This document shows, in pieces, positions 3,969-28,374 of a DNA stretch of 30,999 bases (position 1 is its first letter; each line of letters begins with the position of its first letter). Origin of the DNA: a virus. The translations under genes and the position numbers were made by a program. The stretch lies in the IMG/VR virus record IMGVR_UViG_3300017989_000311, positions 1 to 30,999 of that record; one strand, given 5' to 3'. Below the pieces are notes generated by a model. It saw only the letters and a program-made list of their open reading frames with translations, searched no databases and was not told the DNA's origin.

Positions 3969-4270
3969 ACATCATCTGTCGGCGGAAAAGCCGCTTCAAG
4001 CGCACGTCCTACCTTTTCGGATATCTTCTCGATATTTTGAAAATCAATCCAAGCACCAACATCTTTAGGCGTAATTCCGTCGTCCTCATGCACGAGTCCG
4101 GCCCAGATCAGCGTGCGGAGATCCCGCAGCTTGACTGAGCCGGACACGAATGATTCAATTTTATCGACGGTTACGCCCAACTCGTCCTCAAGTGCTACGA
4201 GAGAGTTGAAATCATAGCGGAGATGCCGCTGTTTTCCACCTAACTCGATAGCAATAGACTTCGCAGGCAT
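3956..4270 (-). CDS. Tail assembly chaperone, short form (gpG-like)
   Basis: This 104-residue protein, MPAKSIAIELGGKQRHLRYD onward, has the compact helical make-up of siphophage tail assembly chaperones, with the recognisable YDFNSLVALEDELG and LRDLRTLIWAGL segments. It lies between the tail tube gene and the tape measure, where these chaperones sit. The start ATG at 4270 follows an AAGGGGG ribosome site. The gene ends in a run of nine A residues followed at once by TAG, so ribosomes can terminate (short form) or slip -1 into the downstream frame (long form). It should act in the cytoplasm by holding the tape measure before tube polymerisation; it is not expected in the finished particle. Confidence 0.85.
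   Translation of the reverse strand: MPAKSIAIELGGKQRHLRYDFNSLVALEDELGVTVDKIESFVSGSVKLRDLRTLIWAGLVHEDDGITPKDVGAWIDFQNIEKISEKVGRALEAAFPPTDDVKKN
3960..3968 (-). promoter_or_regulatory. Programmed -1 frameshift slippery site (A9)
   Basis: The minus strand reads GTA AAA AAA AAC TAG in the zero frame. The A AAA AAA core fits the XXXYYYZ rule for -1 slippage, and the zero-frame stop lies only one codon later. The -1 frame is then open for 127 codons and encodes the expected second chaperone domain. Poly-A slippery sites are common in phage tail chaperone genes. Confidence 0.8.
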
Positions 4271-4291
4271 ATAACCCCCTTGTCAGGCTGA

Positions 4292-4693
4292 TTAACTGGT
4301 AGAGCAGGTCAGCCCGTCAGTGATTGTGATGGATGCCGTGGCGGTAAGCGAGTCCTCGTAAGGCCCGGTATAGACCAGAGAGGTAACGATTCCTTCGCCC
4401 GTATAGGTGGCCCCGTCCGGCATTGTCACAATGCACGTTACCTGTGCCGGGGAAGCATTACATATGTGGTTTTGCAGCACTTTTTTCGCCACGTCGTTGT
4501 AGATATACAAAGCATCCACATCTATCGTATAATCCCGTCTTCCGACGAGATATTCGCCTGCCCGGCTGGAATCTGCGGAGGTGGCATCGATTGTCGCCTG
4601 AGAAAAAGACAGGGTGATAGTCCGAGCACCGGCAAGCACATCACCTTCTGCGGTAAGAGTCATATTGGCACCGGATACAGCATCTGTAGTCAT
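4292..4693 (-). CDS. Major tail (tube) protein
   Basis: This 133-residue protein begins MTTDAVSGANMTLTAEGDVL and has the all-beta pattern of TP901-type major tail proteins. Features include ARTITLSFSQATIDATSADS near residues 23-42, a GEYLVGRRDYTIDVDALY segment, and a C-terminal strand pair ending in TATASITITDGLT. It would polymerise into the tail tube around the tape measure. A strong GGAGG lies five bases upstream of the ATG at 4693. Placement between the tail completion gene and the chaperones is the standard order. An 83-base spacer upstream holds a perfect hairpin, which may matter for the high expression such a protein needs. Confidence 0.85.
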   Translation of the reverse strand: MTTDAVSGANMTLTAEGDVLAGARTITLSFSQATIDATSADSSRAGEYLVGRRDYTIDVDALYIYNDVAKKVLQNHICNASPAQVTCIVTMPDGATYTGEGIVTSLVYTGPYEDSLTATASITITDGLTCSTS

Positions 4694-4728
4694 AGTTCCT
4701 CCAAAAAAGTTAAAAATTTATAGAGATA

Positions 4729-4758
4729 GGGGGTTGCGGAAAATTGAGTGCAACCCCC
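4729..4758. other. Perfect 9-bp inverted repeat in the spacer before the tail tube gene
   Basis: GGGGGTTGC (4729-4737) and GCAACCCCC (4750-4758) are perfectly complementary around a 12-base loop. Read on the plus strand the stem is followed by C TTTTA, which is mildly terminator-like; read on the minus strand it is followed by TATCTCTATAAATTTTT, with T's only further down. It may be a partial terminator, an mRNA processing or stabilising stem for the tail tube message, or a bidirectional element. Confidence 0.5.
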
Positions 4759-4776
4759 CTTTTACTTGCTTAAGTA

Positions 4777-5193
4777 TTAAGCCATGTGAACACGGAACCT
4801 CAGCACGCCATGCCTTATGGGGCGGGCGGGCTCAGTCCCGTCAATTATAATATCGGTATAATCGAGATGGGCTATTACAGGAGTATAACCCGTTATGGAA
4901 AGAGCCGTGCCGTCAAGAGCCTGGGCGATATCGTCCAGCATATCGGCACACTCTTTTGTGCCCTTGTAGTCGCTCCATACGTGAATCATCACGATATTGT
5001 CTTGTGCCGGTGTATCCTGGGCGCTGAATGACGCAGAGCGCGTTCCTATGGGAGAGCTTATCGAGATGTAGGGTAGCGTGGCATTGTTCGGCACATAGTC
5101 GTAGGTGTCGTAATCGCTTGTAAGGTCGTCTGTGGTGAGGCGCGTATAAATTGCCGTTACAAGCTCTGTAAATCCTATCTTTCTTAGTGCCAT
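4777..5193 (-). CDS. Tail completion / tail-to-head joining protein (DUF3168-like)
   Basis: This 138-residue protein has the DUF3168 (SPP1 gp17 / lambda gpU-like) pattern. It has an N-terminal helix (FTELVTAIYTRLTTD), then YVPNNATLPYISISSP, a central strand IVMIHVWSDYKGTKE followed by the helix ADMLDDIAQALDG, and the terminal strand HGVLRFRVHM. The VxVWS(D)YKG(T)xE segment is typical. It is expected to cap the head-proximal end of the tail tube. The ATG at 5193 overlaps the stop of the large glycan enzyme by ten bases, so expression is probably coupled to that unrelated gene. In most phages this gene directly follows the gp10-like gene; here five glycan genes separate the two. Confidence 0.8.
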   Translation of the reverse strand: MALRKIGFTELVTAIYTRLTTDDLTSDYDTYDYVPNNATLPYISISSPIGTRSASFSAQDTPAQDNIVMIHVWSDYKGTKECADMLDDIAQALDGTALSITGYTPVIAHLDYTDIIIDGTEPARPIRHGVLRFRVHMA

Positions 5194-7784
5194 CTATTTA
5201 TAATCCTTGTTATATTGTGCTTTCTCCCGAAATAGTCGAATGGAGCCTTTCTGCGGTAGCGGTCATATTCCAAATCACGCAGGTCTGGCTTTAGATGCGT
5301 GCCGCAAGCGTCAAAACACACGGCGGCCTTCCATTCCGTCTCCTTCAGCCGGAGAAAGAAGTCCATGTGCTCGAATTCTATCTTGATATTGGCGTCCCAT
5401 CTCACATCGCGAAATACTTCGCGTTTAGCAAGAAAGAAATTCACCACCTGGTCGGCAATGCGAAACTTCACGCCGGATACGTCCTGCACGAGCGAGATGG
5501 CGGCATCGCGGTAAAGCACGCCGCCCTCAATATTAAGCATGAGACCCCGGCTATAGCGGTCGTTTCCAAACCGGGCGCCACTCTGCTCGTGTTTTATAAT
5601 TCCCGATACAATACCGATATCGTCGCGGCTGTCGAGCACCAGCTTCATGTTGCGCACCGTTTCAGAGTCATCAAGCCGGATATCGTCGTCGAGGATTAAT
5701 ATGTAGTCTTCTTTCACGTCCTTTACGATGGCGTTCCTCCCTGCGGACAGCCCGGAGTTGAAAGGCATGTACAAGACATGGTGACCGTCACGTTTCAGCT
5801 GGTCATATACCAGCCGCTTTTTATCAGATATACGGCTGTCATCTGCGATATAAAGTGTATAGGCATATGGAAACTTTGTTTCTATAGCATCGAGGGTGCG
5901 GAAAAAATTAGCCTCCCTCATAAAGGTTTTAATACCGACTGCAATAGTATCTTTCCGCTTCCGCCTTCTGCCTTTTTCGTCCTTAACAAATATCCCGCTT
6001 TGGCTTACTTGCCGCACATCTTTTGCTTCAATTATCTTGCCGCCGAATACGTCAAGGTATCCCAATGTCTCGTCGTCATCCTTCCGCTCAAGCGTGATAT
6101 AATAATCGGGGATTTTACCTGTTTTTTGGAAATAGACTGCGGCCTGGGGTGCATCGAGTTTTACCGCCTTGTCTGCCACGCCGAGCGCACTGAGAATCCG
6201 CATGCGGTCGGCATACGGCGGACCTATGGGAAGGTTGGCCTTCTCTATCGCTTTGTCGGAGTATATGCCTATCTTGTAGTCCGTCCCCAGGTTTTTCACC
6301 CCCTCTATCATGTCAATATGCCGGGGGGTTATAACACCCCAGGTATCGGCCGTGAAGGCAAATTTGTCCTTCTTAAAGAAACCGTGGTCTATCGCCCGGT
6401 TGTCCTTCCAGTATTGCCATATCCGGTTTGGCTTCTGCCAATCAGGGCCGTATTGAGCCTCGAGATATCGCTCCGGCGGGTTCGGCACATATGCTTCCAT
6501 TCTGCGGAATGTGATGTGCCTGAGGTTTTGAAACAGGTAGGCCGGTACTATCCGGGCCACGCACTCCATATGCTCTTTCCACCGCCCGAACCTGTCGGGT
6601 CCAAATGCCCCCCACCAGTAGTAATTGCCCTGCTCTCCAAAAAAGAATAAATCAATCTTGATGCCGTATTTGATGAAGCTAAGCTCTATTTTATGTCCGT
6701 TATATGTCCACTTTTTATAAAGCAAGAATCCGGCTTGTTTAAAATCAGAGAGAAATACATTCCAGAGTTTCAGCTGGCCCGGCGCAATGCCGATGTCTAT
6801 GTCCGGGTCATGTCCGATATAGCTGCCGTCACGGATCGCGCCGAGGCAGGTGCCACTCATCAGCCACCATCTTGCCTTATGCTTATTGAGGATGGAGATA
6901 GCGGCGGCCAAGTGCCTATCAAACATAGCGGTATTGGTTTTTCTGTCATCTTTCCCGGTGTAAATTATGGGGTTATATGTGTTGTAATCGCTGTAGCTGT
7001 ATTTCAATCCCCATTTTTTACCGAAAAGGTCGAATCCCACTTTGCGGGAACGATAACGCGTGTATTCCTTTGACGGATCTTCATGCTTATGCCATATCCA
7101 CACAGACGGTGTATATGCTATTTTCCATGCTTTTCGCCGCCTTGCAGGACGGTTTTTTACGAGCTTATATTTCACTGAGATGAAAAAATCACTGTGTTCA
7201 AGCGCGGTTTTAAACTGCGGATCCCACCGGATAGGCTCTTTGCAAACAGCGATTCCTCCACGCCAGAGGTCGAGGCGCATCATGAAAACGTTGAGCACCA
7301 GATCGCAGAGAAAATATTTGACTTTTCCGGCCTTCTGCCACCTCGGGTTTATTATCTTGTCCGTAAATTTGATGTTATCTTCAATGCGGTGGCGTCCTTC
7401 ATAGTGCATCTCAGAGCCGTCAGCGTTTTTAAGCATTCCTCCCACAATTCCAATGCTTTTGTCCTTCTGGAGTACGGCGTGCCAGTTTTCAAGCTTCGTT
7501 CCCTCATCGAACACACAGTCGTCCTCAACTATTACGATATAGTCATACTTTTTCGGAATACGCTCCAGGGCGGCATTACGCGTCCCTCCAACACCGAGGT
7601 CGAAGGGAAGCTCGAGGTATTTACACTCGTGCTGTCTGCAAAACTCCCGTTTCTCGTCTGTGTGATAGCCGTTATCGCCTATATATACCGGGATTCTAGG
7701 GTAGTATTTGCGTATGCTTTTGATGCACCGATAAAGGCATTCATCTCTCAAAAAAGTTGTAACAAGTACGGCAACGTCCTTCAT
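5184..7784 (-). CDS. Four-domain glycan enzyme: GT2 / LicD-like / cytidylyltransferase-like / GT2
   Basis: This 866-residue protein starts at ATG 7784 after GGGAGG. Residues 1-265 are a GT-A glycosyltransferase: VAVLVTTFLRDECL, acidic VEDDC at 86-90, and EHSDFF at 196-201. Residues about 275-465 resemble LicD/fukutin nucleotidyltransferase-fold phosphotransferases, with GTCLGAIRDGSYIGHDPDID at 311-330 supplying metal-binding acids and a second KIDLFFF. Residues about 475-600 resemble CTP-using cytidylyltransferases (TagD/CCT fold): TADTWGVITPRHIDMI, then KIGIYSD, PYADRMRILSAL and a terminal VSQSGIF like the ISTT motif; the usual HxGH reads TPRH, so the first His is replaced. Residues 612-866 are a second GT-A domain with ILDDD at 697-701 and EHMDFF at 805-810, related to the first. 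Known LicD enzymes move phospho-alcohols from CDP-alcohols to glycans, so the middle domains could make and use one donor. Substrates are unknown. Confidence 0.85.
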   Translation of the reverse strand: MKDVAVLVTTFLRDECLYRCIKSIRKYYPRIPVYIGDNGYHTDEKREFCRQHECKYLELPFDLGVGGTRNAALERIPKKYDYIVIVEDDCVFDEGTKLENWHAVLQKDKSIGIVGGMLKNADGSEMHYEGRHRIEDNIKFTDKIINPRWQKAGKVKYFLCDLVLNVFMMRLDLWRGGIAVCKEPIRWDPQFKTALEHSDFFISVKYKLVKNRPARRRKAWKIAYTPSVWIWHKHEDPSKEYTRYRSRKVGFDLFGKKWGLKYSYSDYNTYNPIIYTGKDDRKTNTAMFDRHLAAAISILNKHKARWWLMSGTCLGAIRDGSYIGHDPDIDIGIAPGQLKLWNVFLSDFKQAGFLLYKKWTYNGHKIELSFIKYGIKIDLFFFGEQGNYYWWGAFGPDRFGRWKEHMECVARIVPAYLFQNLRHITFRRMEAYVPNPPERYLEAQYGPDWQKPNRIWQYWKDNRAIDHGFFKKDKFAFTADTWGVITPRHIDMIEGVKNLGTDYKIGIYSDKAIEKANLPIGPPYADRMRILSALGVADKAVKLDAPQAAVYFQKTGKIPDYYITLERKDDDETLGYLDVFGGKIIEAKDVRQVSQSGIFVKDEKGRRRKRKDTIAVGIKTFMREANFFRTLDAIETKFPYAYTLYIADDSRISDKKRLVYDQLKRDGHHVLYMPFNSGLSAGRNAIVKDVKEDYILILDDDIRLDDSETVRNMKLVLDSRDDIGIVSGIIKHEQSGARFGNDRYSRGLMLNIEGGVLYRDAAISLVQDVSGVKFRIADQVVNFFLAKREVFRDVRWDANIKIEFEHMDFFLRLKETEWKAAVCFDACGTHLKPDLRDLEYDRYRRKAPFDYFGRKHNITRIINRWH

Positions 7785-7793
7785 TCTTCCTCC

Positions 7794-8519
7794 CTAACGC
7801 TCTTTTGCATCCCATGTCCAGAGCCATGTACCCGGTTTCCCCCAATTCCGTTGTATCCGGCGCACCATCCCCTCAAGCGGCCTCAACGCAAGCGCCACAA
7901 CAGCATTGGTATCCACCTCGGGCAATTCGCCGAACGGACTGTAATCTACTCCGAGAGTGCGGAACATCCGCTTAATTTCATCGGGATTGCTGAGGTTTTT
8001 AAAATCAAGCTCGTATGTTTTTCGAAAATACGGTTTCCAGCGATAATAGCGCGCCCTCACTTCATACCACTGCCAGAGAACCATTTCGTAGAACGACAGG
8101 CCGGGTTGGCAACGGAGAATATTGTGCCGCCATTCTGGCTTTAGAAACCAATCGCTCTCAAAATGCCTGCATTTCTCGGCATAAGAGATGAGACTGTCAA
8201 GCGGGTTACGGTAAAGATAGATACAGGAGACATCATTAAATCTCCCGAGTACGTGCCGGACATAAGCTTTTATGAACTGCTGGTTCGACTCAAAGTAATT
8301 TCCAGATTTTGAGTGAAGTTCTATCAAATCCAGTTTTTCTTTTATAACGGACGCCTCGTGAGGCTGGAGGTTGTCATTATTATTCAGTGCCTCGAGTACA
8401 TCATTGATAATATAAGGTTGCGGCTCGTGGAAAGATGGGATGTCCGTTAGCGCATCGAATATTCCCGCCAAATATTTCGTCCCACAGCGCCCGGCAGAAG
8501 CAACGAATATTTTCACCAT
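7794..8519 (-). CDS. Sulfotransferase
   Basis: This 241-residue protein has both PAPS-binding hallmarks of sulfotransferases. The 5'-phosphosulfate loop lies near the N-terminus (ASAGRCGTKYLAGIF, residues 7-21) and the 3'-phosphate segment is YLYRNPLDSLISYAEK (101-116). A C-terminal WxW-rich tail follows (GTWLWTWDAKER). It should move a sulfuryl group from PAPS to a hydroxyl or amine, most likely on a sugar given its neighbours, in the cytoplasm. It overlaps the upstream glycosyltransferase by seven bases (ATGGTGA) and is followed nine bases later by the four-domain enzyme, so all are probably one transcript. It is clearly different in sequence from the sulfotransferase at 17852-18616. The acceptor is unknown. 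Confidence 0.85.
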   Translation of the reverse strand: MVKIFVASAGRCGTKYLAGIFDALTDIPSFHEPQPYIINDVLEALNNNDNLQPHEASVIKEKLDLIELHSKSGNYFESNQQFIKAYVRHVLGRFNDVSCIYLYRNPLDSLISYAEKCRHFESDWFLKPEWRHNILRCQPGLSFYEMVLWQWYEVRARYYRWKPYFRKTYELDFKNLSNPDEIKRMFRTLGVDYSPFGELPEVDTNAVVALALRPLEGMVRRIQRNWGKPGTWLWTWDAKER

Positions 8520-9109
8520 ATCCGCTCAAAATCCCGGCCCCAGAGCAGGCCGAGGTGACGGCGTCTGTGATAGGTGGCCTCGTCTTTTTCCCATGAACTA
8601 CGCATGATTTCCCTTGTCCTGTCTTTAGACATATGATGTTTTGCTATTGCCGCTCTCGACGAATAAAAACGGTCCACGCTCTTGGCGTACTCCCAAAGCT
8701 CCTGATCACCGAAATAGTTCGTATAGTCAGGGCATTCGGCGGCTTTCTGCGGAAACCGCTCGAGAAACTTTCGTCCCAAGAGCCTGATGCCATAGACGGT
8801 CGAACCGTGCTCCTGATTCAATCCAATCATTCCATCGGTATCAGGGAAATGCTCAGCCAGACTTGCAAGAGCCATCTCTATGCAGTCGGGGTAAAACTCC
8901 TGATCATCGCCTGCATACAGCACGGCATCGGCATCTATTTGAGCGGTAATGCGGTTTATTTTCTCTACAAATCCGCTCCCCTCATCGCCGTCATAGTAGA
9001 GGGATACATGCTCATGCGTGCTATTGGCGACAGAGAGCGCGAGGCGTGAGGCCGACTCTGTCCGCAGCCATAGCGTAGGGCAGGCTACAAGTACGTGCAT
9101 TATCCGCAT
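8513..9109 (-). CDS. Glycosyltransferase-like protein (GT-A fold)
   Basis: The product is 198 residues. It has the layout of a short GT2-like glycosyltransferase: an early strand (MHVLVACPTLWLR), a loop with NSTHEHVSLYYDGDEG, and DADAVLYAGDDQEFYPDC near residues 59-76, where the GDD fits the nucleotide-sugar/metal site. Later acids (DYTNYFGDQELWEY) could be the catalytic region. The C-terminus is basic (RRRHLGLLWGR). The ATG at 9109 overlaps the upstream gene by ten bases; an ATG at 9100 in a TAATG overlap is an equally good start by local habit. It sits in a run of glycan genes. Family membership is less certain than for the neighbours because the protein is short. Confidence 0.65.
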   Translation of the reverse strand: MRIMHVLVACPTLWLRTESASRLALSVANSTHEHVSLYYDGDEGSGFVEKINRITAQIDADAVLYAGDDQEFYPDCIEMALASLAEHFPDTDGMIGLNQEHGSTVYGIRLLGRKFLERFPQKAAECPDYTNYFGDQELWEYAKSVDRFYSSRAAIAKHHMSKDRTREIMRSSWEKDEATYHRRRHLGLLWGRDFERIW

Positions 9110-9810
9110 ATAATCTCTTTCACGAGCGGTTGCCCGAATAAAACATCTTTCCGCCTCTCGAATTCCTCTCTGGTCAGGCTGTCAACTTTATCTCTTTTCC
9201 ACATCCGCGAGGAATACCAGTTGTGATAAAACGTAGGCTGTCGGTTGATATAATAAATATCACCGTAAACGCCCTCATAAAACTTGACGCCCGGCTTTTC
9301 GTATCCGACGTTGAGGCCGAATACTTCATATCCCTTGTCGGTAATGTCATAATACAGCTTGCGGCCTACGTCATGCTCCCGCGTCGCTGAAAATTTTAAA
9401 CCTTCTTTTCTGAAATAATTGCACCTGAAAAACATGACACAGGGATGAATTGGCTTGAGGTCTCCGCCCTTTGCGGCAATCAATCGGCGCGTTGGCTTGC
9501 TGTGGTAGAGGTCAAGAATGTCATAATCCCAATTCCGGCGCATGATGTGAGCATCGCTGTCAAGGACAAGGCAAAAAGCATGGGTAGCTTCTTTGAGCAG
9601 TCGATCAAGCCCATGGCCATGCCCATAATTCATCGGAGAGACAATCGTTTTGATATCTGTTTGTGCTTTGAGCCAGTCTACGGAACCGTCAACGCTGGCA
9701 TTGTCAAAAACTATTATCTCATAAGGAACAGTTGTAAATTTACGGACAGATTTTACAAGAAGCCTCATCCATTCAAGGCTGTTGTAGTTAACGGCAAGTA
9801 TGGATATCAT
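9100..9810 (-). CDS. GT2-family glycosyltransferase
   Basis: This 236-residue protein opens with MISILAVNYNSLEWMRLLVK, the standard GT2 N-terminus. It continues with YEIIVFDNASVDGSVDWL (30-47) and places the metal-binding DxD as LVLDSDAHI near residues 81-89. Gly-rich NYGHGHGLD is the usual donor-site segment. It probably adds one sugar from a nucleotide-sugar donor in the cytoplasm; there are no membrane segments. The start overlaps the upstream methyltransferase stop (ATGA), indicating coupled translation. The C-terminal region is rich in aromatic residues and may bind the acceptor. Donor and acceptor cannot be deduced. Confidence 0.85.
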   Translation of the reverse strand: MISILAVNYNSLEWMRLLVKSVRKFTTVPYEIIVFDNASVDGSVDWLKAQTDIKTIVSPMNYGHGHGLDRLLKEATHAFCLVLDSDAHIMRRNWDYDILDLYHSKPTRRLIAAKGGDLKPIHPCVMFFRCNYFRKEGLKFSATREHDVGRKLYYDITDKGYEVFGLNVGYEKPGVKFYEGVYGDIYYINRQPTFYHNWYSSRMWKRDKVDSLTREEFERRKDVLFGQPLVKEIICG

Positions 9811-10253
9811 TTAACGGCCTTCAATTTAAGCTTAAGAAGCCAGTCGTCTTGACTCTCTTCAGTGACGGCGAATTGAGGCACAGGCTCTGTCGAGCGGGAG
9901 GCAAAGGCATCTCTAAACCTGTTTCCGGCCTCGTAATACCAGAAACTATAACGGTGCCACAAACTGAGGTGTGTCGGGTCCATAACGGCCTGCGGATGCG
10001 GATAACACGGCAGTTCAATGTCGGCTATTCCGCCCGGCTTCAACACCCGCCATATCTCATGCATCACAAGGGTTTTCTTCTCGGTGTGTACATGCTCAAG
10101 AATGTGGTGTGCCCTTACCTCATCGAAATGGTTATCAGGAAAAGGCAGTGGTGTCTCTATATCGTGGGTAATATGGGCGTTTGTTTTCGGGTCTTTATCA
10201 AGGGTCGTGTATCCGTGAAGCCGCCTCCCGCCAGAACCTAGATCGAGTTTCAT
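9807..10253 (-). CDS. SAM-dependent methyltransferase (COG4627-like)
   Basis: This 148-residue class I methyltransferase begins MKLDLGSGGRRLHGYTTLDK: motif I DLGSG at residues 4-8 and the acidic end of strand 2 at D19. HFDEVRAHHILEHV and VLKPGG follow in the expected order. It is shorter than many relatives. It shares the pattern LxLGSG, LEH and a later DPTH with the products of 18779-19297 and 26044-26607, so the three look like paralogues. Such short enzymes often accompany glycosyltransferase clusters and are predicted to methylate sugars, although that is an inference. The ATG overlaps the gp10-like stop (ATGA), tying this enzyme to a structural gene. Confidence 0.8.
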   Translation of the reverse strand: MKLDLGSGGRRLHGYTTLDKDPKTNAHITHDIETPLPFPDNHFDEVRAHHILEHVHTEKKTLVMHEIWRVLKPGGIADIELPCYPHPQAVMDPTHLSLWHRYSFWYYEAGNRFRDAFASRSTEPVPQFAVTEESQDDWLLKLKLKAVK

Positions 10254-10729
10254 CGCCTTTTAAATACCAGGCGCACCTTCCGCTCGGCCTCGTTTTTATG
10301 CTTCTCGTATGCTTTGGTGAGATAAAGGAAGCCTTCTTTCGGTCGCTCGGCAGGCTCATGTCCGCGTCTGGGCGGATACTCGCCGGGCCCGGGATAGGGG
10401 GCATCGCCCCAATAGCCGAATTCCTGCATGTGGGCATATTTGACATTCGTGCCGACTACCACTACAAACTCGTCCCGTCTCGCCGACGGCCTGTCTACAC
10501 CCTCATTTATGCGGGAGTAGTTCGGGCCTGTTTTCGACCAGGATGTAGTTATGGAATTCCGCAGGCGCCCCGTCCAGATAGGCGTGCCCTTTTTAGCATC
10601 GCCCTCGATATCATAGCCTACAATCAGCAGGGCTTTTTCCACATCGGGTTTTTTTCGCTCGTAATAACGCTTGAAGTTATCCTTCGCCTCTTTTATGCCC
10701 TTGAGGTCGATAGTGATGCGGTCAGCCAT
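10250..10729 (-). CDS. HK97 gp10-like tail-component / neck protein
   Basis: This 159-residue protein matches the HK97 gp10 family. It has an N-terminal strand and helix (ITIDLKGIKEAKDNFKRYY), then the family core KKGTPIWTGRLRNSI at about residues 66-80, then VVVVGTNVKYAHMQEFGYW and a Pro-rich PPRRGHEPAERP near the C-terminal helix. In phages of this kind it acts at the head-tail interface or in tail completion. It starts in a TAATG overlap with the head-tail joining protein (10729) and ends overlapping a methyltransferase. The usual next gene, the DUF3168-like protein, is found only 5 kb further on at 5193. Confidence 0.88.
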   Translation of the reverse strand: MADRITIDLKGIKEAKDNFKRYYERKKPDVEKALLIVGYDIEGDAKKGTPIWTGRLRNSITTSWSKTGPNYSRINEGVDRPSARRDEFVVVVGTNVKYAHMQEFGYWGDAPYPGPGEYPPRRGHEPAERPKEGFLYLTKAYEKHKNEAERKVRLVFKRR

Positions 10730-13691: not shown

Positions 13692-14510
13692 TTATAATTC
13701 ATATGTGTTTATCGGTAAATCCCCACCTTGCGAATCAATATCGAATGTGAGGGAAATACTGTCAGCGAGGTCAATATCGCAGTCGGCTACCGAGGTAACA
13801 TAATGCTCATCATAATAATCCGTATAAAAATCATCCCCGCAACCAGCCGGTGCAGTATTGTCATTATTCGGATTATCCGCAACGAAATTGACAATAATCA
13901 AACCACTGCTATCTATGGTTGAACCGGAACCCCATCCAGGGATGTCATCTCCATTTTCTCTGCCGACGTATGGATTACCCGAACCATATAACAGCGCATA
14001 ATCATGGGCAACTTCAGTTACGTTTGAACCATTAACCCAGATACCCATGTTGCCTGAGTTGTCTTCAAACTGAAACCCAACACAAACCCAACCTCTTTCA
14101 GTAATTGTTACGGTATCATAATCTTGATTTGTTCCACTGGCATTATGAGAAATCCCCAACTCAACAGTAGTGCCATTTGATTGTGACCGTATCCATCCAA
14201 TCTGAGCATTTCTTCCACCGCCATTATGAAAAAGCCCATATGTTCCCGTTGCTAAGTCAGTTGGGATATAAAGCAAAAAAGCAACATCTGTAGTTGTGTA
14301 AATATCATAGTCACAGCCATTGCTGGGTGCGCAATAAGCACTCAATCCATAATTCGGATAGTTCTCCGTATCAGCCTGTGCATACGATGATGAGTTGGCA
14401 TCGTGAGCCGAATCTGTACCTGTATTGGCGCCTGTTTGATTAAATGAATAAGCAGTATGCACCCCTGACCAAGTAGTCAAGAAACTGCTTAAACCGTCTT
14501 GAAATGCCAT
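13692..14510 (-). CDS. LamG / concanavalin-like domain protein, probable spike or fibre
   Basis: I take the start at ATG 14510, which forms a TAATG overlap with the preceding gene; a further 23 in-frame codons upstream lie inside that gene and look non-coding. The 272-residue product begins MAFQDGLSSFLTTW. Its core reads like a LamG jelly roll: DVAFLLYIPTDLATGTYGLF, GTTVELGISHNASG, ERGWVCVGFQFEDNSGNMGI, WVNGSNVTE, then YVGRENGDD. These segments match the strand order of concanavalin-like lectin folds. The C-terminus (DLADSISLTFDIDSQ) resembles the repeat units of the next gene. Probable role: glycan binding at the virion surface, inferred from fold and from lying between the beta-helix and repeat proteins. 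Confidence 0.7.
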   Translation of the reverse strand: MAFQDGLSSFLTTWSGVHTAYSFNQTGANTGTDSAHDANSSSYAQADTENYPNYGLSAYCAPSNGCDYDIYTTTDVAFLLYIPTDLATGTYGLFHNGGGRNAQIGWIRSQSNGTTVELGISHNASGTNQDYDTVTITERGWVCVGFQFEDNSGNMGIWVNGSNVTEVAHDYALLYGSGNPYVGRENGDDIPGWGSGSTIDSSGLIIVNFVADNPNNDNTAPAGCGDDFYTDYYDEHYVTSVADCDIDLADSISLTFDIDSQGGDLPINTYEL

Positions 14511-16747
14511 TATAACGTCTTCACATTTACCCTGATGTTTATGGGCTGATATTCGCATGCCCCGATATCGACACCCCATCCCCGCGGAACAGGATTGCCG
14601 TTATAATCCTGCGTCAGGCCTAAAGGACGCCCCGCATCGATACAGGGAGAGGTCGGCTTGAGGTTAAAATCGGCTCCGGCGGCATCGACTACCAGTGGGT
14701 CTGAGTTTATGCCCCGCAAATCCCATCCGGCAGCCTGCCAGCCTGCCCAATCTGTAGCCGATACGGGCCGCATGAAATTACCGCCCGCCGAATGGTAGAC
14801 GCAGTTATAATCACTTATCAGCCCGGTCGTGCAGCCCGTGCCGTAACGGATTTCATATGTGTCATTTTCAAAAAAGATGTTATTTACGATCTCAACCGAT
14901 ACCTGATCGCCATTGTAGAAGCCCACACCGCAAGGATAATTATCATAAAAGACGTTATTGTAAATTTTCAGGCCGTTGGCGTCGTTAAAAAGCATCCCGC
15001 CGTTAAAGGACGTAGAGCCTGTCCCCGTGCCGTTTCCGTAGGACACATTGTAATACCACCGATCACCGGAAAGGCCGTTATCGGTCAGGCCGGAGCCTTC
15101 ATTGTCGTAACACAGGCAATAACGGCAGATGCTGTCCTTCGTATAGTTATCAAAACGGCAGCCTTTGCCCTCAATGTCGCCCGTTGTGACATAATTATCA
15201 TGAGATGTGAGGAACTCAAATATGTTGTCACGCGGATTATTTGTCGCATCCGGCCCCCAGGATGAGAACCCGTCACCGCCCGTCGCCGCCGACACGCCGC
15301 CCCATCCACAGTGATGAGCCTCGCTGTTTGACGCCGTAGAACTTGATGTCCCGTAACCAAACATGAGACCATGCCGTCGGGCATAACTTATGGTCAGGCC
15401 GTCAGCCAGACAATCAATCAGGTCGTCATATCCGCCTGCTCCCTGTCCGCCAAAATCAAGGGCCGTATCGCCCGCCCCTGTCAGCGTCATGTTTTGAATA
15501 TTTATGGTCCGCTCCGTGCCTGTGTTGACAAGCACCTTAATATTGCTGTCTGTCGTATAGCGGACCTCTATGCCGTCTATCGTGACATAAGAGCAGTTGA
15601 GGATATAAATTCCGTACTGGTCGTTTCCCGTCTTGTTGCCTACCTCCATCGTGTGTGTATCCGGGTCTGCATCATCCGTACACCAGACGTAAGCGGTCGT
15701 GCCACTATTCGACCAGCATCCTGCTGATTTCCCGCTGAATGTGGTTGAGATATCAGTATCCCATTGATACCATCTGAGGAAGGTGTCATCCTCAAATATG
15801 ACCATCGGCGTGTTCGTGCAATCTTTCTCGTAGATATGCGCACCGTTGCCGGAATAGGACGTTCCGACACTGAGGTCGTCCTCGTAGAAAACCATATCAA
15901 CCTCAGAGTGGCAGTAGTTATTGCCTAGCTTTACCGCCGCCACATCCATCGTGTCGGTATCGAGGTTGGATACGTCATGCACCAGTTCGCCGTCAATCCA
16001 GACCTTGGCTATGCCGTCATCGTTTCCCGCTCCGGTCGAGGCTTTCCAGTAGATACATATCTCATACCACTGGCCCGTTGAGATGGTGGCCGAGGTCGTG
16101 GTGTTGGTCGCCGAGGCCGAGTCGTCGTATGTCGTTACCTTGTGCTTATAGGTACCGCCATCGTTATAAAGGCCGACATGAAGCACACCTGAGAATCCGC
16201 CACCCTGCATCTGGTGGCCGGAATTAATAGTGGTTATGGCGTTATAGTACCGCTTCCATGACATATAATATTCGGTACGGTCGGTTATATCGCCGCCCTC
16301 AACTATATAGTCCTGTGAACCACCGGAGCCGTCTACCGTGACCTCAAGCCGCCCGTTCTGGTTTGCGACGCCGCCCGTTGTAGAGTCCCATCCTGTGAGA
16401 TCGTTATCGTTGAAATTATCCGTAAACTCGGAGCCGTCGGCATACCAGCCCTCGATATCGCTTTCCGCCCACGTGGTCAGCGCATTGGAGCCGTTTATAA
16501 TCGGGTCTGCACCTGTACCGTAGGCCTGAAATGTTATGGGGTTCCCGGCATTGCCGCTGTCTGTAATCTCTAGGGCGTCAGACCATTCATCGCCGCGGTT
16601 TAGACTTACATCATCTGCGGCGGCAAAGCTCCCCATATAGGAGTTAACATCTGATATTTCATTCCAGGCGCAATTAGCCCCGGTTAGAGCCTGTGTGGTG
16701 CCATCCCCACCATCATCAGCGGAGGCGTTGACATAGTAGGACGCCAT
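14510..16747 (-). CDS. Parallel beta-helix tailspike-like protein with LamG-like insert
   Basis: The product is 745 residues. MASYYVNASADDGGDGT followed by NSYMGSFAAADDVSLNRGD and NAGNPITFQAYGTGADPII is the usual opening of right-handed parallel beta-helix proteins (pectate-lyase-like). From about residue 107 to 297 this is interrupted by a LamG-like sandwich (FNDNDLTGWDS, GQWYEICIYWKAS, KVWIDGELVHDV, VFYEDDLSVG). The helix then resumes with coils such as CSYVTIDGIEVRYTTDSNI and LKIYNNVFYDNYPCGVGFY, ending in VDIGACEYQP. Such proteins serve as tailspikes that bind or cleave host polysaccharide. I cannot identify catalytic residues, so depolymerase activity is only possible. Start and end are both in TAATG overlaps with neighbours. 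Confidence 0.75.
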   Translation of the reverse strand: MASYYVNASADDGGDGTTQALTGANCAWNEISDVNSYMGSFAAADDVSLNRGDEWSDALEITDSGNAGNPITFQAYGTGADPIINGSNALTTWAESDIEGWYADGSEFTDNFNDNDLTGWDSTTGGVANQNGRLEVTVDGSGGSQDYIVEGGDITDRTEYYMSWKRYYNAITTINSGHQMQGGGFSGVLHVGLYNDGGTYKHKVTTYDDSASATNTTTSATISTGQWYEICIYWKASTGAGNDDGIAKVWIDGELVHDVSNLDTDTMDVAAVKLGNNYCHSEVDMVFYEDDLSVGTSYSGNGAHIYEKDCTNTPMVIFEDDTFLRWYQWDTDISTTFSGKSAGCWSNSGTTAYVWCTDDADPDTHTMEVGNKTGNDQYGIYILNCSYVTIDGIEVRYTTDSNIKVLVNTGTERTINIQNMTLTGAGDTALDFGGQGAGGYDDLIDCLADGLTISYARRHGLMFGYGTSSSTASNSEAHHCGWGGVSAATGGDGFSSWGPDATNNPRDNIFEFLTSHDNYVTTGDIEGKGCRFDNYTKDSICRYCLCYDNEGSGLTDNGLSGDRWYYNVSYGNGTGTGSTSFNGGMLFNDANGLKIYNNVFYDNYPCGVGFYNGDQVSVEIVNNIFFENDTYEIRYGTGCTTGLISDYNCVYHSAGGNFMRPVSATDWAGWQAAGWDLRGINSDPLVVDAAGADFNLKPTSPCIDAGRPLGLTQDYNGNPVPRGWGVDIGACEYQPINIRVNVKTL

Positions 16748-19517: not shown

Positions 19518-20189
19518 TCAGTTAATAGCGTTTGTGGTCTGGACTGTCCCTTCATCCACGAGGGATGCCTGCCATCCAGTCTCTACACCTTCCTCGGAAT
19601 TGAGGCTTGGCTCGGGATTACCATTTTTTACAACAAAGTAAAAAGAAGGCTTCCCCGACTTTGACAGGTTTCCGGGTATGAGTTGCCCCATACCTGCGCC
19701 AATTTCGACGTTCTGATTAGTATTACATGAACTCGATGCATAGGTACTTCCGGCGAACAGAATATCGTCTGTAGCGTTCGACTCGAAAAGGCCGATATTC
19801 CGCAGGTTCGACGCCCCGGTCAAAAAGTTGTCGGAACTATAGAACGTAGCCGTAAAGCGTACTGTCTTCGATCCACTGACGGATACGGTCACCGTCTTGC
19901 GTTGAGTGGATGCCATAATTTCGCCGTCAAGTGTTGAATGGGTCACATTAGGCGCTGTCCCCGTTCCGATTGCTATATAGTTTACCTGCTTGGAGCTTGC
20001 CTGCGCAGCAAGAAGCCGACACAAGAAGTCGTCAAACCCTTCGTTCGTGATGGTATTCTGGCACCATCCGCTATCGCCGACAATTTTATCAGGAACATCG
20101 CCGTCACCTTCTGTGAGCCGCAATCTGTAGAATCCGTGTATCTTGATACCGTCACCCGCAGGCTCCGGCTTCTTGTCAAGATGTTTCAT
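19518..20189 (-). CDS. Putative tail fibre / virion surface protein
   Basis: This 223-residue beta-rich protein has YIAIGTGTAPNVTHSTLDGE, a pattern often seen in phage structural proteins at the start of a repeated beta domain, then RKTVTVSVSGSKTVRFTATF, NLRNIGLFESNATDDILFAG and the C-terminal FYFVVKNG. Conserved NIGLFE and hydrophobic alternation suggest an adhesin-like or fibre-connecting domain. The ATG at 20189 follows TAGGAGG. That site abuts a small perfect hairpin (20202-20217). It overlaps the preceding small gene by 14 bases. I cannot assign a defined family; surface or fibre location is inferred. Confidence 0.6.
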   Translation of the reverse strand: MKHLDKKPEPAGDGIKIHGFYRLRLTEGDGDVPDKIVGDSGWCQNTITNEGFDDFLCRLLAAQASSKQVNYIAIGTGTAPNVTHSTLDGEIMASTQRKTVTVSVSGSKTVRFTATFYSSDNFLTGASNLRNIGLFESNATDDILFAGSTYASSSCNTNQNVEIGAGMGQLIPGNLSKSGKPSFYFVVKNGNPEPSLNSEEGVETGWQASLVDEGTVQTTNAIN

Positions 20190-21132: not shown

Positions 21133-22182
21133 TTAGCTTGTCGTTGCTTCAAGCGCCACAAACGGGCTTACCGTCTGTGCCCCCCTGTATGGGGTGATAG
21201 GCGCACTGAGGAGAGGCTGTCCGTCAATACGGAGTACTATGCGCCAGAATGTCTCATCGGTCAGAAATCCATAGTCATTCGAATCCTTGACATGGCGCGA
21301 GCCTTTGATTTCGATAGAGCGGTCACCTATTAGGTAATGGCCCGCCCCGAAATCGGCAAGAATGATGTCGCCCTTGGAACCGAAGGCCGGGCATTTTTCT
21401 GTGACCTCGAACGGGAAGCCCGCAAGCTTCCGCTCATTAATATTTATGGCGTAGAGATAGTCGGTCGCCCCCATCTCAAGATCGAGGATGGAATCTAATG
21501 CGTCCTGGTTTATAAGCCAGACCGCCCGCTTCCACGAGTCAGGAAGAAGGCGTCGTACCATATTACCTATGTCTTCCCACTGTATAGAGCTTGCCGTATT
21601 GCGGTAAGGCGATATCAGCATGCCCGAATTGATAATACCCAAAGGCTGGCCAGCACCCGTGCCGTTAATGAAGTAGTCATCCTCGACAAACCGCACCGCC
21701 TGCCCGAACGCCTGCGTCATGAAAGAGCCGAATTTGCCGTAATCGTCCTCAAGCTCATTCGAGGCGAACATGCCGCCTACGAGTTTATGCGCCGTCAGTT
21801 CAAGCTGCGCGAGCGCAGGCTTACTGATATAGGATGCGGATGATTTATCAGTGCCCTCAGACACCCATTTGAATGTAATGCCGCCGAATATGCCGGAACT
21901 CCTGTCACTGTCTTTGAGTACCCGCACCTTGAGGGAGTCGGAACTCATGGGCAGCACCGTCGCCCTGGGACGCACCAAGGCATCCTTTAACGCCGCATTG
22001 AATATATCATCGGCATATTTCTCTGGCACGAGAAAGCCGCCCTGGGAGTCTTCTCCGATTTCCATGTGCCCCGCAGTTTTCATGAGGCGGCTATCGGGGA
22101 GTCCTTCTCCGTCACAGGCTTTTCTCACTTTCACCAGAAATTCACCGAACGAATTGAATCCATTCGTTTTATCTTTAATCAC
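21133..22182 (-). CDS. Second HK97-fold major capsid-like protein (no scaffold domain)
   Basis: This 349-residue protein is a clear paralogue of the 428-residue capsid protein. It shares TAGHMEIGEDSQGGFLVPE, ALVRPRATVLPMSSDSLKV, the GTGAGQPLGI loop and the C-terminal FVALEATTS. Before the shared start of the fold it has only about 34 residues (SFGEFLVKVR matches the N-arm), so the coiled-coil scaffold domain of the other copy is missing. It starts at GTG 22182, overlapping the GT4 gene by four bases. Key loops look intact, so it does not appear to be a pseudogene. Possible roles are a minor or pentamer-forming capsid subunit, or a second shell component. Only its membership of the family is certain. 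Confidence 0.9.
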   Translation of the reverse strand: MIKDKTNGFNSFGEFLVKVRKACDGEGLPDSRLMKTAGHMEIGEDSQGGFLVPEKYADDIFNAALKDALVRPRATVLPMSSDSLKVRVLKDSDRSSGIFGGITFKWVSEGTDKSSASYISKPALAQLELTAHKLVGGMFASNELEDDYGKFGSFMTQAFGQAVRFVEDDYFINGTGAGQPLGIINSGMLISPYRNTASSIQWEDIGNMVRRLLPDSWKRAVWLINQDALDSILDLEMGATDYLYAININERKLAGFPFEVTEKCPAFGSKGDIILADFGAGHYLIGDRSIEIKGSRHVKDSNDYGFLTDETFWRIVLRIDGQPLLSAPITPYRGAQTVSPFVALEATTS

Positions 22183-23369
22183 TTGTTTTTCCCCTTGTTT
22201 TGTTCAAGCGTCTTCAGTATCGGTTGCCAGTGCTTCGGCCATACCTTATTCCAGTCATACTGAAGCGCTGCTTTTCGCACGTCATGTTTCAGGCTTGTAT
22301 AATCGCCGAACTTCCAGAAGTTGTATGCCGCCTCAAGCTGTTTCAGGATTTGGCTCGCATTAGGTTCGTAGCGCCACGTATTGGTCGGCATCCAGGAGCC
22401 GTTGGTCAACCAGTCTATGTCGATGAGCCACGTCACAACGCCGGCCTTATGGAACTCCGGTCCTGTCGTGGTGGCGGTGGTCGCAACGGGGATGCCGCAC
22501 GAGGCGGCCTCGACAATGGGAAGCCCGAAACCTTCGCCCTTGGTAGGAAGGCAGAAGACGTCGAAAGTGTTATATAGTTTAGATAATTGCTCTTGGCCTA
22601 TCGTCCCCTGGTCTATCGCCTCCTGGGGGCCGAAAAGCACGTAATTATATAATTCGAGATTATTCAGCACCACGGTATAGTTGAGCGTGTTTTCCCTCGC
22701 TCCCTCAGCGTGCGTATGCAGGTACAGCCTAACGTCCGAGTGCCGCTTGGTGAGTTCTTTGAACGCCACCATAAGGTCGATGAAGCCCTTGCGGTCGTCC
22801 TTGTAGTTAAGGCCTACAGAGCCGACCACAAAAACATCATCGGGCCATTTGAAATTTTTCCGGTACGTCGCCCTGGCTTCCTTATCAGGCTTGAAAATAT
22901 CCGTCCGTACGCCCACAGGAGCATAGAGCGGGTCAAGCCCGATGGATTGAAGCTCGCGGGAGCCGTGTTTTGACATGGCAATAACTATGCCCGGCCCCTT
23001 ATTTTCGGGCATCTGCGAGTCCATGCCGAGAAGCACGTCGCTATAGCGCTTCGCTATCCACTCGGTATCAATGGGACAGTACGCAATCCATTTATCATGG
23101 GGATAATGGCGCTTCTCTGACATGAGCCAGATATCCCACATGCTTATGATGTAATCGTAGCCGTCCCGCTTTATGATGTTTCCGATATAGCGGGAGTTTA
23201 TGCCCTCAAACACCTCTATGCCTTCCCACTCGACGCGGCCCCAGAAAGCATGTTTCGTAGGGATTGCCACCTTATGGCCCTCTGCTGTAAGCCGCCTTAC
23301 GATCTCACGGCTTATAGTGCCGTAGCCGGAATTACCGAAGGGCACAGAGCTATTCCAGAGAATTTTCAT
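22179..23369 (-). CDS. GT4-family glycosyltransferase
   Basis: I place the start at ATG 23369, which follows GGGGAGG by eight bases; 12 further codons upstream have no such site. The product (396 residues) is GT-B: an N-terminal Rossmann half opening MKILWNSSVPFGNSGYGTIS, then FVVGSVGLNYKDDRKGF, and the retaining-GT4 signature GEGFGLPIVEAASCGIPVAT with the E-x7-E spacing. No membrane segment is present, so it probably acts in the cytoplasm from a nucleotide-sugar donor. It lies between two capsid paralogues and overlaps the second, an unusual setting that hints at modification of the head or coupling to late expression. The substrate is unknown. Confidence 0.9.
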   Translation of the reverse strand: MKILWNSSVPFGNSGYGTISREIVRRLTAEGHKVAIPTKHAFWGRVEWEGIEVFEGINSRYIGNIIKRDGYDYIISMWDIWLMSEKRHYPHDKWIAYCPIDTEWIAKRYSDVLLGMDSQMPENKGPGIVIAMSKHGSRELQSIGLDPLYAPVGVRTDIFKPDKEARATYRKNFKWPDDVFVVGSVGLNYKDDRKGFIDLMVAFKELTKRHSDVRLYLHTHAEGARENTLNYTVVLNNLELYNYVLFGPQEAIDQGTIGQEQLSKLYNTFDVFCLPTKGEGFGLPIVEAASCGIPVATTATTTGPEFHKAGVVTWLIDIDWLTNGSWMPTNTWRYEPNASQILKQLEAAYNFWKFGDYTSLKHDVRKAALQYDWNKVWPKHWQPILKTLEQNKGKNK

Positions 23370-23456
23370 AGATACATCCTCCCCATAAGAAAGGGCGGGG
23401 GCCACTTCGCAAAAACAAGGTGGCCCCGCCCCGTGGTTTCAGTTTACGCCACCGGA

Positions 23457-23912: not shown

Positions 23913-25199
23913 TTAGCTCGTAGTTGCGGCCAACTGCACGAACGGTGACTGTGTAGTCCCGCCGCGTCTTACTGTCAGAGCACTCTGCGGCCAGCACTGT
24001 CCGGCTACCCGAAGAACGAATCGCCAGCAGGTCTCATCCGTGGTGAAGGCCACGTGCTTGGACATATCAATGGTGATAGGCTGGCGGTCTCCGATAAGGT
24101 AGTACCGGAAATCGTAGTAGCCAATATCGCCCTGTGTGCCCAGAGCCTGCATCTTCTCTGAGATAAGAACCGGGCGTCCGAAAATCCGCCATACCAGGCC
24201 GTCCTGTACCCTGTCTATCCACACGAGCCTTTTACCGGAGGCGTCGGCGGCGTTTCCGCTGCCAAGCTCGATAAGCTCGGGGATGATGGTAGGATTAACA
24301 ACCCAGTAGGCAGAGCCGTGAGACGAGGGAAGCATACGCATATACATCTCAGCCAAATCCTCGATCAGAACCCTGTTGACCGTGTTGCGGTAGTTATTGA
24401 TAGTACAACCGCAGTTCTGAATCCCCAGGGGCTGACCGGCTCCGGTCCCCACTAGAAAAGCATCGTCCTCGAAATACCCCCAGGCCGCCCCGAACATCTT
24501 CTTTATAAGCGATGCAAGAGCGATCATGCTGTCGTCAAGAAGCTCATCAGAAGCATAGGTAATGCCCGCAAGCTTATGGGGGGTCAATTCCATCTGCCCA
24601 AAAGTAGGCTTTGTAGCCGACTTAGAGGCAGCCTCAGCCGTCCACGTCGCCGACACCCCGCCGAATACCGTGGAGGCATGGGAGGTATCGTCAACGTACG
24701 GTATTTTCACCGAATCTGAGGTCATGGGGATGATAGTAGAACGAGGCCTGACGACTGCATTTTCAAGGGCAATCTGTTTCAAATCGCTACGGTATACTTC
24801 AGGTACAAGAAATCCGCCCTGGCTGTCCTCGCCAATCTCCATGTGTCCGGCAGTCTTCGACTCAACTTCAGGTTCAGGTATGTTTTTCTGCACACCGTGC
24901 TTGTCAATATATGTCAACCTCGGATCAACCTGCCGCCTCGTGCGTGCAATGTAAACGGATTTTAGGAACTCGGCGCCTGAGTCGAACTCGGCAGCCTTTT
25001 TCTCCGCTTCTTTCATCTCGGGAGAAGGGGTGGGCATAGCCTCTTTAGCTTTATCAACAGCCTCGTTAAGGTGCTCTTTCAGTTCGTCTTTTACGTACTC
25101 GGATACCTGCTCTTTGAGGATCTGCGCAACTGTTTCTTTTGCCTCTTCGCCAATTTTCTCCTTGACCAGATTCGTAAATTCGTTGTCTGTTACTTTCAT
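23913..25199 (-). CDS. HK97-type major capsid protein with N-terminal scaffold domain
   Basis: This 428-residue protein has an HK97-type capsid fold. Residues 1-70 are a charged coiled-coil delta domain (LKEQVSEYVKDELKEHLNEA), followed by an N-arm (EFLKSVYIARTRRQ) and, from about 115, the shell domain: TAGHMEIGEDSQGGFLVPE, RPRSTIIPMTSDSVKIP, GTGAGQPLGIQNCG, and the end FVQLAATTS. The protease at 26628-28112 probably removes the delta domain; the cleavage site cannot be fixed by eye but should lie between about 75 and 115. It assembles the icosahedral head. The ATG at 25199 has no good ribosome site nearby (AGGTG is about 16 bases away), which is odd for the most abundant protein, and a 240-base hairpin-rich leader precedes it. 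Confidence 0.93.
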   Translation of the reverse strand: MKVTDNEFTNLVKEKIGEEAKETVAQILKEQVSEYVKDELKEHLNEAVDKAKEAMPTPSPEMKEAEKKAAEFDSGAEFLKSVYIARTRRQVDPRLTYIDKHGVQKNIPEPEVESKTAGHMEIGEDSQGGFLVPEVYRSDLKQIALENAVVRPRSTIIPMTSDSVKIPYVDDTSHASTVFGGVSATWTAEAASKSATKPTFGQMELTPHKLAGITYASDELLDDSMIALASLIKKMFGAAWGYFEDDAFLVGTGAGQPLGIQNCGCTINNYRNTVNRVLIEDLAEMYMRMLPSSHGSAYWVVNPTIIPELIELGSGNAADASGKRLVWIDRVQDGLVWRIFGRPVLISEKMQALGTQGDIGYYDFRYYLIGDRQPITIDMSKHVAFTTDETCWRFVLRVAGQCWPQSALTVRRGGTTQSPFVQLAATTS

Positions 25200-28300: not shown

Positions 28301-28374
28301 CAGAACCGACGGGACTTGCACCCGCTTTCTCCGCCGTGACAGGACGGCGTCTCGACTGCTTCGACCTCGGCTCT
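28301..28374 (-). tRNA. tRNA-Asp-like gene (anticodon GTC), atypical
   Basis: On the minus strand the 74 bases fold as a cloverleaf: a 7-bp acceptor (AGAGCCG with CGGTTCT, discriminator G), a short D stem (GTC with GAC), a 5-bp anticodon stem (CCGTC/GGCGG) with loop CTGTCAC, a 5-base variable loop and a 5-bp T stem (GCGGG/CCCGT). The anticodon loop is identical to that of ordinary tRNA-Asp. Departures are A instead of T at position 8, no GG in the D loop, TGCAAGT instead of TTCRANY in the T loop, and no encoded CCA. It lies 13 bases beyond the Mu gpF-like gene. It could be a divergent phage tRNA or a tRNA mimic. Confidence 0.55.

Follow-up and report, generated by a model that had tools for sequence, protein, structure and literature searches.

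A recurrent phage gene joins two glycosyltransferase domains to a LicD-type domain and a cytidylyltransferase-like domain

The DNA analyzed here (the window) is a virus record of 30,999 bases. It contains an open reading frame (ORF) with an ATG start and 866 codons for amino acids, in which two glycosyltransferase (GT) domains flank a LicD-type phosphotransferase domain and a degenerate cytidylyltransferase (CyTase)-like domain (Table 1). This four-domain arrangement is real and conserved. Over the first 14,190 nt, a second contig is 99.99% identical to the window, so the fusion frame is not a local assembly error, and the order GT-LicD-CyTase-GT recurs in dozens of IMG/VR contigs, far beyond what chance would produce. 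With moderate confidence, we explain the protein as a soluble multidomain glycan-assembly enzyme of the phage that probably decorates the virion.

Domain structure of the fusion protein

Searches of the window protein against Pfam returned Glycos_transf_2 (2.3e-24), matching two stretches, and LicD (1.7e-11), both above the curated cut-offs. The motifs EHSDFF, EHMDFF, GHDPDID, ADRMRILSAL, and KIGIYSD are all present in the ORF. A first-pass annotation, made from the sequence, had described a single protein, encoded within a virion gene cluster, in which two GT domains flank LicD and CTP-transferase-like domains, and had proposed structure prediction as a check; the Pfam and HMM matches agree with this description, and the AlphaFold model likewise has four folded domains (mean pLDDT, 88.2; pTM, 0.44). 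A second model reached a pTM of 0.56, and the interdomain arrangement is uncertain in both, so that in the window model the single domains, though not their relative placement, can be taken as reliable.

The two GT domains are related to each other, as the same annotation had held: an HMM of either one matches the other, and BLASTP of the window protein against itself gave no second alignment. In the PDB, phmmer links the N-terminal domain to B4GALNT1 (5.4e-12), and VIA-align superposes it on 9h6k (B4GALNT1) with a Z score of 26.2 and an rmsd of 2.2 over 235 residues. HMM and structure matches of the C-terminal domain are to B4GALNT1, chondroitin synthase, GalNAc-Ts, and related GT-A enzymes. 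The GT-A fold, DxD motif, and Pfam scores above cut-off place these domains among GT2-like GT-A enzymes of the B4GALNT1 type, and their motifs are conserved among relatives.

Evidence for the predicted LicD/fukutin-like middle domain comes from the proposed profile search and beyond. The window protein scores 45.1 bits against Pfam LicD (PF04991; cut-off, 22.6), which assigns it to the LicD/FKTN/FKRP family on score. FKRP is found by sequence profile (4.3e-11), by Foldseek (E value of 7e-16, among the best Foldseek matches), and also by phmmer of the window protein against the PDB. Residues D326, D328, D330, and D378 are invariant in 31 homologues and align with those of FKRP, giving the catalytic DxDxD motif and the later Asp. 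GT matches filled the lists from full-length fold searches; the LicD and CyTase folds were assigned from Foldseek matches and sequence profiles.

Table 1. Fusion gene, its domains, and neighboring genes in the window
Feature	Position	Strand	Evidence
Four-domain GT-LicD-(degenerate CyTase)-GT protein	5184..7784	-	Pfam, HMMs, AlphaFold model
N-terminal GT-A domain, aa 1-276, B4GALNT1-like, EDD and EHSDFF	6957..7784	-	Pfam GT2, phmmer, structure alignment
LicD/FKRP-type phosphotransferase domain, aa 278-466, D326-x-D328-x-D330 and D378	6387..6953	-	Pfam LicD, FKRP profile, Foldseek
Degenerate cytidylyltransferase-like domain, aa 467-610, HxGH changed to TPRH, HGDDW and ISTT gone	5955..6386	-	Comparison with relatives
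C-terminal GT-A domain, aa 612-865, DDD and EHMDFF	5190..5951	-	HMM and structure matches
Tail terminator gene	4777..5193	-	Pfam Tail_completion_gp17 6.3e-12, phrog_176; overlaps fusion gene by 10 nt
Sulfotransferase-like gene	7794..8519	-	PF00685 1.7e-4, just below cut-off; similar gene near same spot in L084
Possible glycosyltransferase-like gene	8513..9109	-	PF00535 E 0.026 only, weak
GT2 glycosyltransferase	9100..9810	-	PF00535 1.7e-13
SAM-dependent methyltransferase	9807..10253	-	PF08241 6.5e-10
Neck1/HK97-gp10-like gene, upstream cassette border	10250..10729	-	PF04883 2e-9, phrog_5 3.3e-20

Intact and degenerate cytidylyltransferase domains

PF01467 did not match the window protein even at an E value of ≤1, and the CTP-transferase identity of its third domain follows from alignment with relatives such as L003, which belongs to the HxGH CyTase-like family with a PF01467 match of 4e-17 (63.1 bits; cut-off, 21). 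The intact motifs HxGH, HGDDW, and [IV]S[ST][ST] occur in 35 contigs, which are distinct although several are near-identical. The 15 intact sequences compared share 28 invariant CyTase positions, of which 9 remain in the window protein, 10 each in L006 and L097, and 11 in L098. In the window protein, which falls outside the HxGH class, the ISTT-type motif reads VSQS, and HGDDW and YK are altered along with HxGH. L006, L097, and L098 have likewise lost the site, though other residues replace it there, while L099 lacks HGDDW, retains HVGH, and keeps 25 of the 28 positions. Judged by these motifs, the window CyTase is a remnant with a destroyed active site, and only the donor-making part of the protein has decayed; the LicD and GT catalytic motifs persist.

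Within the degenerate clade, CyTase identity is 30 to 36% versus 52 to 63% for the other domains, a gap not seen in the intact pair L009/L015, where the CyTase keeps pace with the rest of the protein. The degenerate domains of L006 and L097, the sole informative pair given that dS is saturated in most, have a dN/dS of 0.14, indicative of purifying selection and of a domain that is still constrained rather than junk. It may retain a binding or structural role. The first-pass proposal that the window protein both makes and uses a CDP-alcohol is therefore not upheld for this copy, which has lost most of the invariant positions. The idea fares better for the family, since the CTP site survives in the 35 contigs, and relatives with an intact CyTase probably both make and use the donor.

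Distribution, history, and gene neighborhood

We scanned IMG/VR with the window protein and with growing alignments and ran four domain HMMs on all six-frame ORFs of the loci. The first large scan used CyTase motifs and favors intact copies; those started from alignments of the N-terminal and C-terminal GT domains are free of this bias and added further degenerate and domain-less forms. Degenerate CyTase domains occur in the window (and its near-identical copy), L006, L097, and L098. Six contigs encode GT-LicD-GT proteins without a CyTase (L072, L073, L075, L076, L081, and L225), 14 encode GT-GT proteins without LicD and CyTase, and two have a split form with a GT-GT protein and a separate LicD gene (L083 and L084); owing to the scan bias, these proportions are not natural frequencies. 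Contig ends truncate some members, leaving just part of their N-terminal GT or LicD domain visible.

In a tree built without the CyTase columns, the window protein, L098, L006, and L097 form one clade (100/99). To explain where the CyTase is absent, the tree requires another two changes, the first in L072/L073/L075/L076 and the second in L081, which lies beside the intact L099 (both on long branches). If the intact state is ancestral, loss or erosion of the donor-making part would thus have happened three times or more. GT-GT proteins form one clade (100/99) in a tree of the two GT domains, which, depending on its root, fits either gain or loss of LicD. Contigs L206 to L223 carry a sister form of the gene, with two GT domains only, at the same spot beside the tail terminator. 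The cassette of L072, whose fusion protein lacks a CyTase, includes genes for a radical SAM protein (4238-5257) and for LicD on its own (5945-6421).

The window protein gave no tblastn match among 50,697 INPHARED phage records. L003 does match other phages there, with all best matches listed covering just its C-terminal GT part. Among the best 80 cellular CyTase loci, no ORF combines LicD and CyTase; the matches are CyTase or CyTase-PEP mutase proteins, with LicD in separate genes. A cellular origin of the whole fusion was provisionally set aside, there being no cellular LicD-CyTase ORF among those best 80 loci listed. In the literature searched, we found no description of a phage enzyme with the GT-LicD-CyTase-GT layout, in line with the first-pass annotation, which had known of none.

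Several viral contigs encode related enzymes in other settings. CyTase-PEP mutase fusions, which are phosphonate biosynthesis genes, occur in L043, L053, and similar viral contigs, some longer than 100 kb, and LicD-like genes lie near such fusions in L056, L066, L067, and L069. L041 (2691-4247) has a stand-alone CyTase that groups with the phage domains, located between a methyltransferase gene and a gene of unknown function; LicD was not detected there.

Between neighboring genes of the window, from neck1 through the tail terminator, there is either an overlap or a gap of at most 9 nt, and this close packing suggests joint late expression. Wherever the contig reaches, the next structural gene 3' of the fusion gene is homologous to the tail terminator and as a rule lies no more than 41 nt away; the exceptions are L012 and L013 (267 nt) and L003 (881 nt), in which opposite-strand ORFs intervene. 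The cassettes of other phages add a DegT aminotransferase, GNAT, radical SAM, methyltransferases, GTs, and a sulfotransferase. Hydropathy analysis found no membrane-like segments in the enzymes of the window cassette.

Elsewhere in the window, two separate major capsid protein homologues are encoded on the minus strand (21133-22182 and 23913-25199), the first of them adjoined by a GT4-like (glycosyl transferases group 1) gene (22179-23405). Identity to the closest major capsid proteins on deposit does not exceed 38%. A 745-residue protein (14510-16747, minus strand) has 3-keto-disaccharide hydrolase-like and beta-helix matches and no PHROG match. Rfam detects a tRNA (28301-28374, minus strand) that ARAGORN does not, as well as a group I intron (19527-19716, minus strand; 51.7 bits versus a gathering score of 50) inside an ORF of unknown function (19518-20189, phrog_5417); this intron match may be spurious or may mark a gene that is interrupted by an intron.

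Proposed function and comparison with known systems

According to our preferred explanation, the two GT-A domains would add sugars, and the LicD domain, as its fold and retained catalytic acids suggest, would move a phospho-alcohol or phosphonyl group from a CDP or CMP donor to the growing glycan. In most relatives the fused CyTase, with its intact active site, would make this donor in place from CTP, whereas the window phage and its clade, which have a CyTase remnant, would obtain the CDP or CMP donor from the host or from another enzyme. The virion is the most probable destination of this glycan, because the gene always lies beside the tail terminator and because the gene and its window neighbors are free of membrane-like segments, as would best suit an acceptor in solution, for instance a virion protein. 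Virion glycosylation by phage enzymes has been reported for mycobacteriophages (PMC11256854, citing Freeman 2023).

The cargo depends on the kind of CyTase involved. The first-pass label of TagD/CCT-like holds for the CTP-transferase-like fold, given the relatives' PF01467 match and the alignment, but not for TagD or CCT proper: intact copies score 55 to 67 bits against TagD (TIGR01518; equivalog cut-off, 165.4) and 72 to 93 bits against the HldE C-terminal domain (TIGR02199; cut-off, 181.5), and the scores and the tree rule out TagD, CCT, and HldE identity. The best solved relatives of the intact CyTase profile are the Fom1 CyTase domain (1.2e-30) and then ethanolamine-phosphate cytidylyltransferase, and the L007 intact CyTase model superposes on Fom1 (5x3d) with a TM score of 0.86 on the target, an rmsd of 1.9, and 36% identity. 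In the CyTase tree, the phage domains and the stand-alone L041 and L042 proteins form a clade (96/87) that adjoins, and lies outside, the PEP mutase-linked clade including Fom1 (100/100), with a joining branch of 90/82. The phage CyTase domains are thus a clade of their own, closest among the proteins sampled to phosphonate-activating cytidylyltransferases such as Fom1. A search of 22 contigs found no PEP mutase; on this count and by their place outside its clade, the relatives do not belong to the PEP mutase-linked Fom1 type. Given the Fom1-type kinship without PEP mutase, the cargo can be a phospho-alcohol or a phosphonate, with a CDP-alcohol or a CMP-phosphonate, respectively, as the possible donor.

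Transfer of a phosphonate such as aminoethyl- or hydroxyethylphosphonate from CMP-phosphonate, rather than of a phospho-alcohol, is compatible with our best explanation and is a possibility we take seriously while thinking it the less likely cargo. Fom1, the best match, is a CTP:hydroxyethylphosphonate enzyme, and the phage clade is sister to the PEP mutase-linked CyTases. The best cellular relatives are largely of about 440 residues, the size of CyTase-PEP mutase fusions, of which one bacterial and two viral examples were confirmed. Such fusions have been described in phosphonate clusters, where LicD-like transferases can also occur (PMC6697681). However, the sister relation lacks strong support, the HGDDW scan patterns bias toward such relatives, and a phosphonate would need to be supplied by the host; phosphonate self-sufficiency was rejected, given the absence of PEP mutase from the 22 contigs.

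The enzyme might instead modify a host surface glycan (O-antigen, capsule, or teichoic acid), blocking superinfection or changing a receptor, which we consider rather unlikely. LicD enzymes normally tailor cell-surface polymers, which soluble GTs and LicD enzymes also build, and a phage licD gene found with ispD has been interpreted in this way (PMC8008677). A LicD gene lies within about 6 kb in 24 of the 80 best cellular CyTase loci. The fixed position beside the tail terminator gene argues against a host target, as does the absence of membrane segments from the enzymes of the window cassette, in contrast to known Gtr conversion systems, which include membrane proteins.

An HldE-like role, in which the CyTase-like domain would supply a fused GT with an ADP- or CDP-sugar by activating a sugar phosphate and LicD would be unconnected, is improbable. 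TIGR02199 is the top NCBIfam model by score, and PHROG 7878 gives an HldE-like match, but HldE forms a separate clade, the best PDB profile matches are CTP enzymes, and in the GT fusion family the CyTase is seen only with LicD, which also occurs without it. Least credible of all is that the window protein still makes its own donor, since a retained fold (pLDDT mostly 75 to 90 over the domain), purifying selection in one degenerate pair, and the T that phosphopantetheine adenylyltransferase has for the first H of HxGH stand against four changed motifs, 9 of 28 invariant positions kept, and a site also lost, through other replacements, in L006, L097, and L098.

Together, these observations suggest that phages assemble sugar decorations of an unusual, phosphate-bearing kind, the probable site being their own virions. 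More tentatively, and with some doubt, we propose a tailed-phage family with a self-contained phosphoglycan (or phosphonoglycan) synthase that makes a CTP-activated donor, transfers it, and extends the glycan, is dedicated to virion decoration, and has repeatedly lost or eroded its donor module as phages rely on outside supply. If so, virions would be modified in a way that, within the limits of our search, has no earlier description. The single domains are known, but neither a phage gene that unites them nor a conserved phage locus beside tail genes for making phosphate-bearing glycans turned up in the literature searched. The GT-GT, GT-LicD-GT, GT-LicD-dead CyTase-GT, and GT-LicD-CyTase-GT states would serve as natural controls for the coupling of donor synthesis to transfer and for its replacement. 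A product located on virions would bear on phage surface charge and on changes in adsorption or recognition.

Several known systems share parts of this design. In Flandersviridae, a phage LicD gene likewise adjoins a cytidylyltransferase family gene, but these are separate genes in the replication module, IspD is not of the HxGH family, and fused GTs are not reported (PMC8008677). Mycobacteriophage Che8 also has phage GTs, and its glycans are covalent on virion proteins, whereas for the fusion described here such glycans are a prediction; that account mentions no LicD or cytidylyltransferase domain (PMC11256854). Fom1 and the PEP mutase-fused CyTases share PYTxGISST-type and HGDDW motifs with the intact phage domain and provide its closest solved structure; their partner is PEP mutase, in place of LicD and GTs in the phages, and the window copy is degenerate. 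FKRP, of the LicD family (PF04991), is the best solved relative by sequence and shares the DxDxD motif and later Asp. It is a separate eukaryotic enzyme that uses CDP-ribitol made by another protein, whereas the phage LicD domain sits between two GTs and, in relatives, beside a donor-making domain of another fold. B4GALNT1 and chondroitin synthase have GT-A domains akin to those of the phage by profile and fold, and chondroitin synthase likewise unites two of them; what sets the phage fusion protein apart from both is its LicD and CyTase insert.
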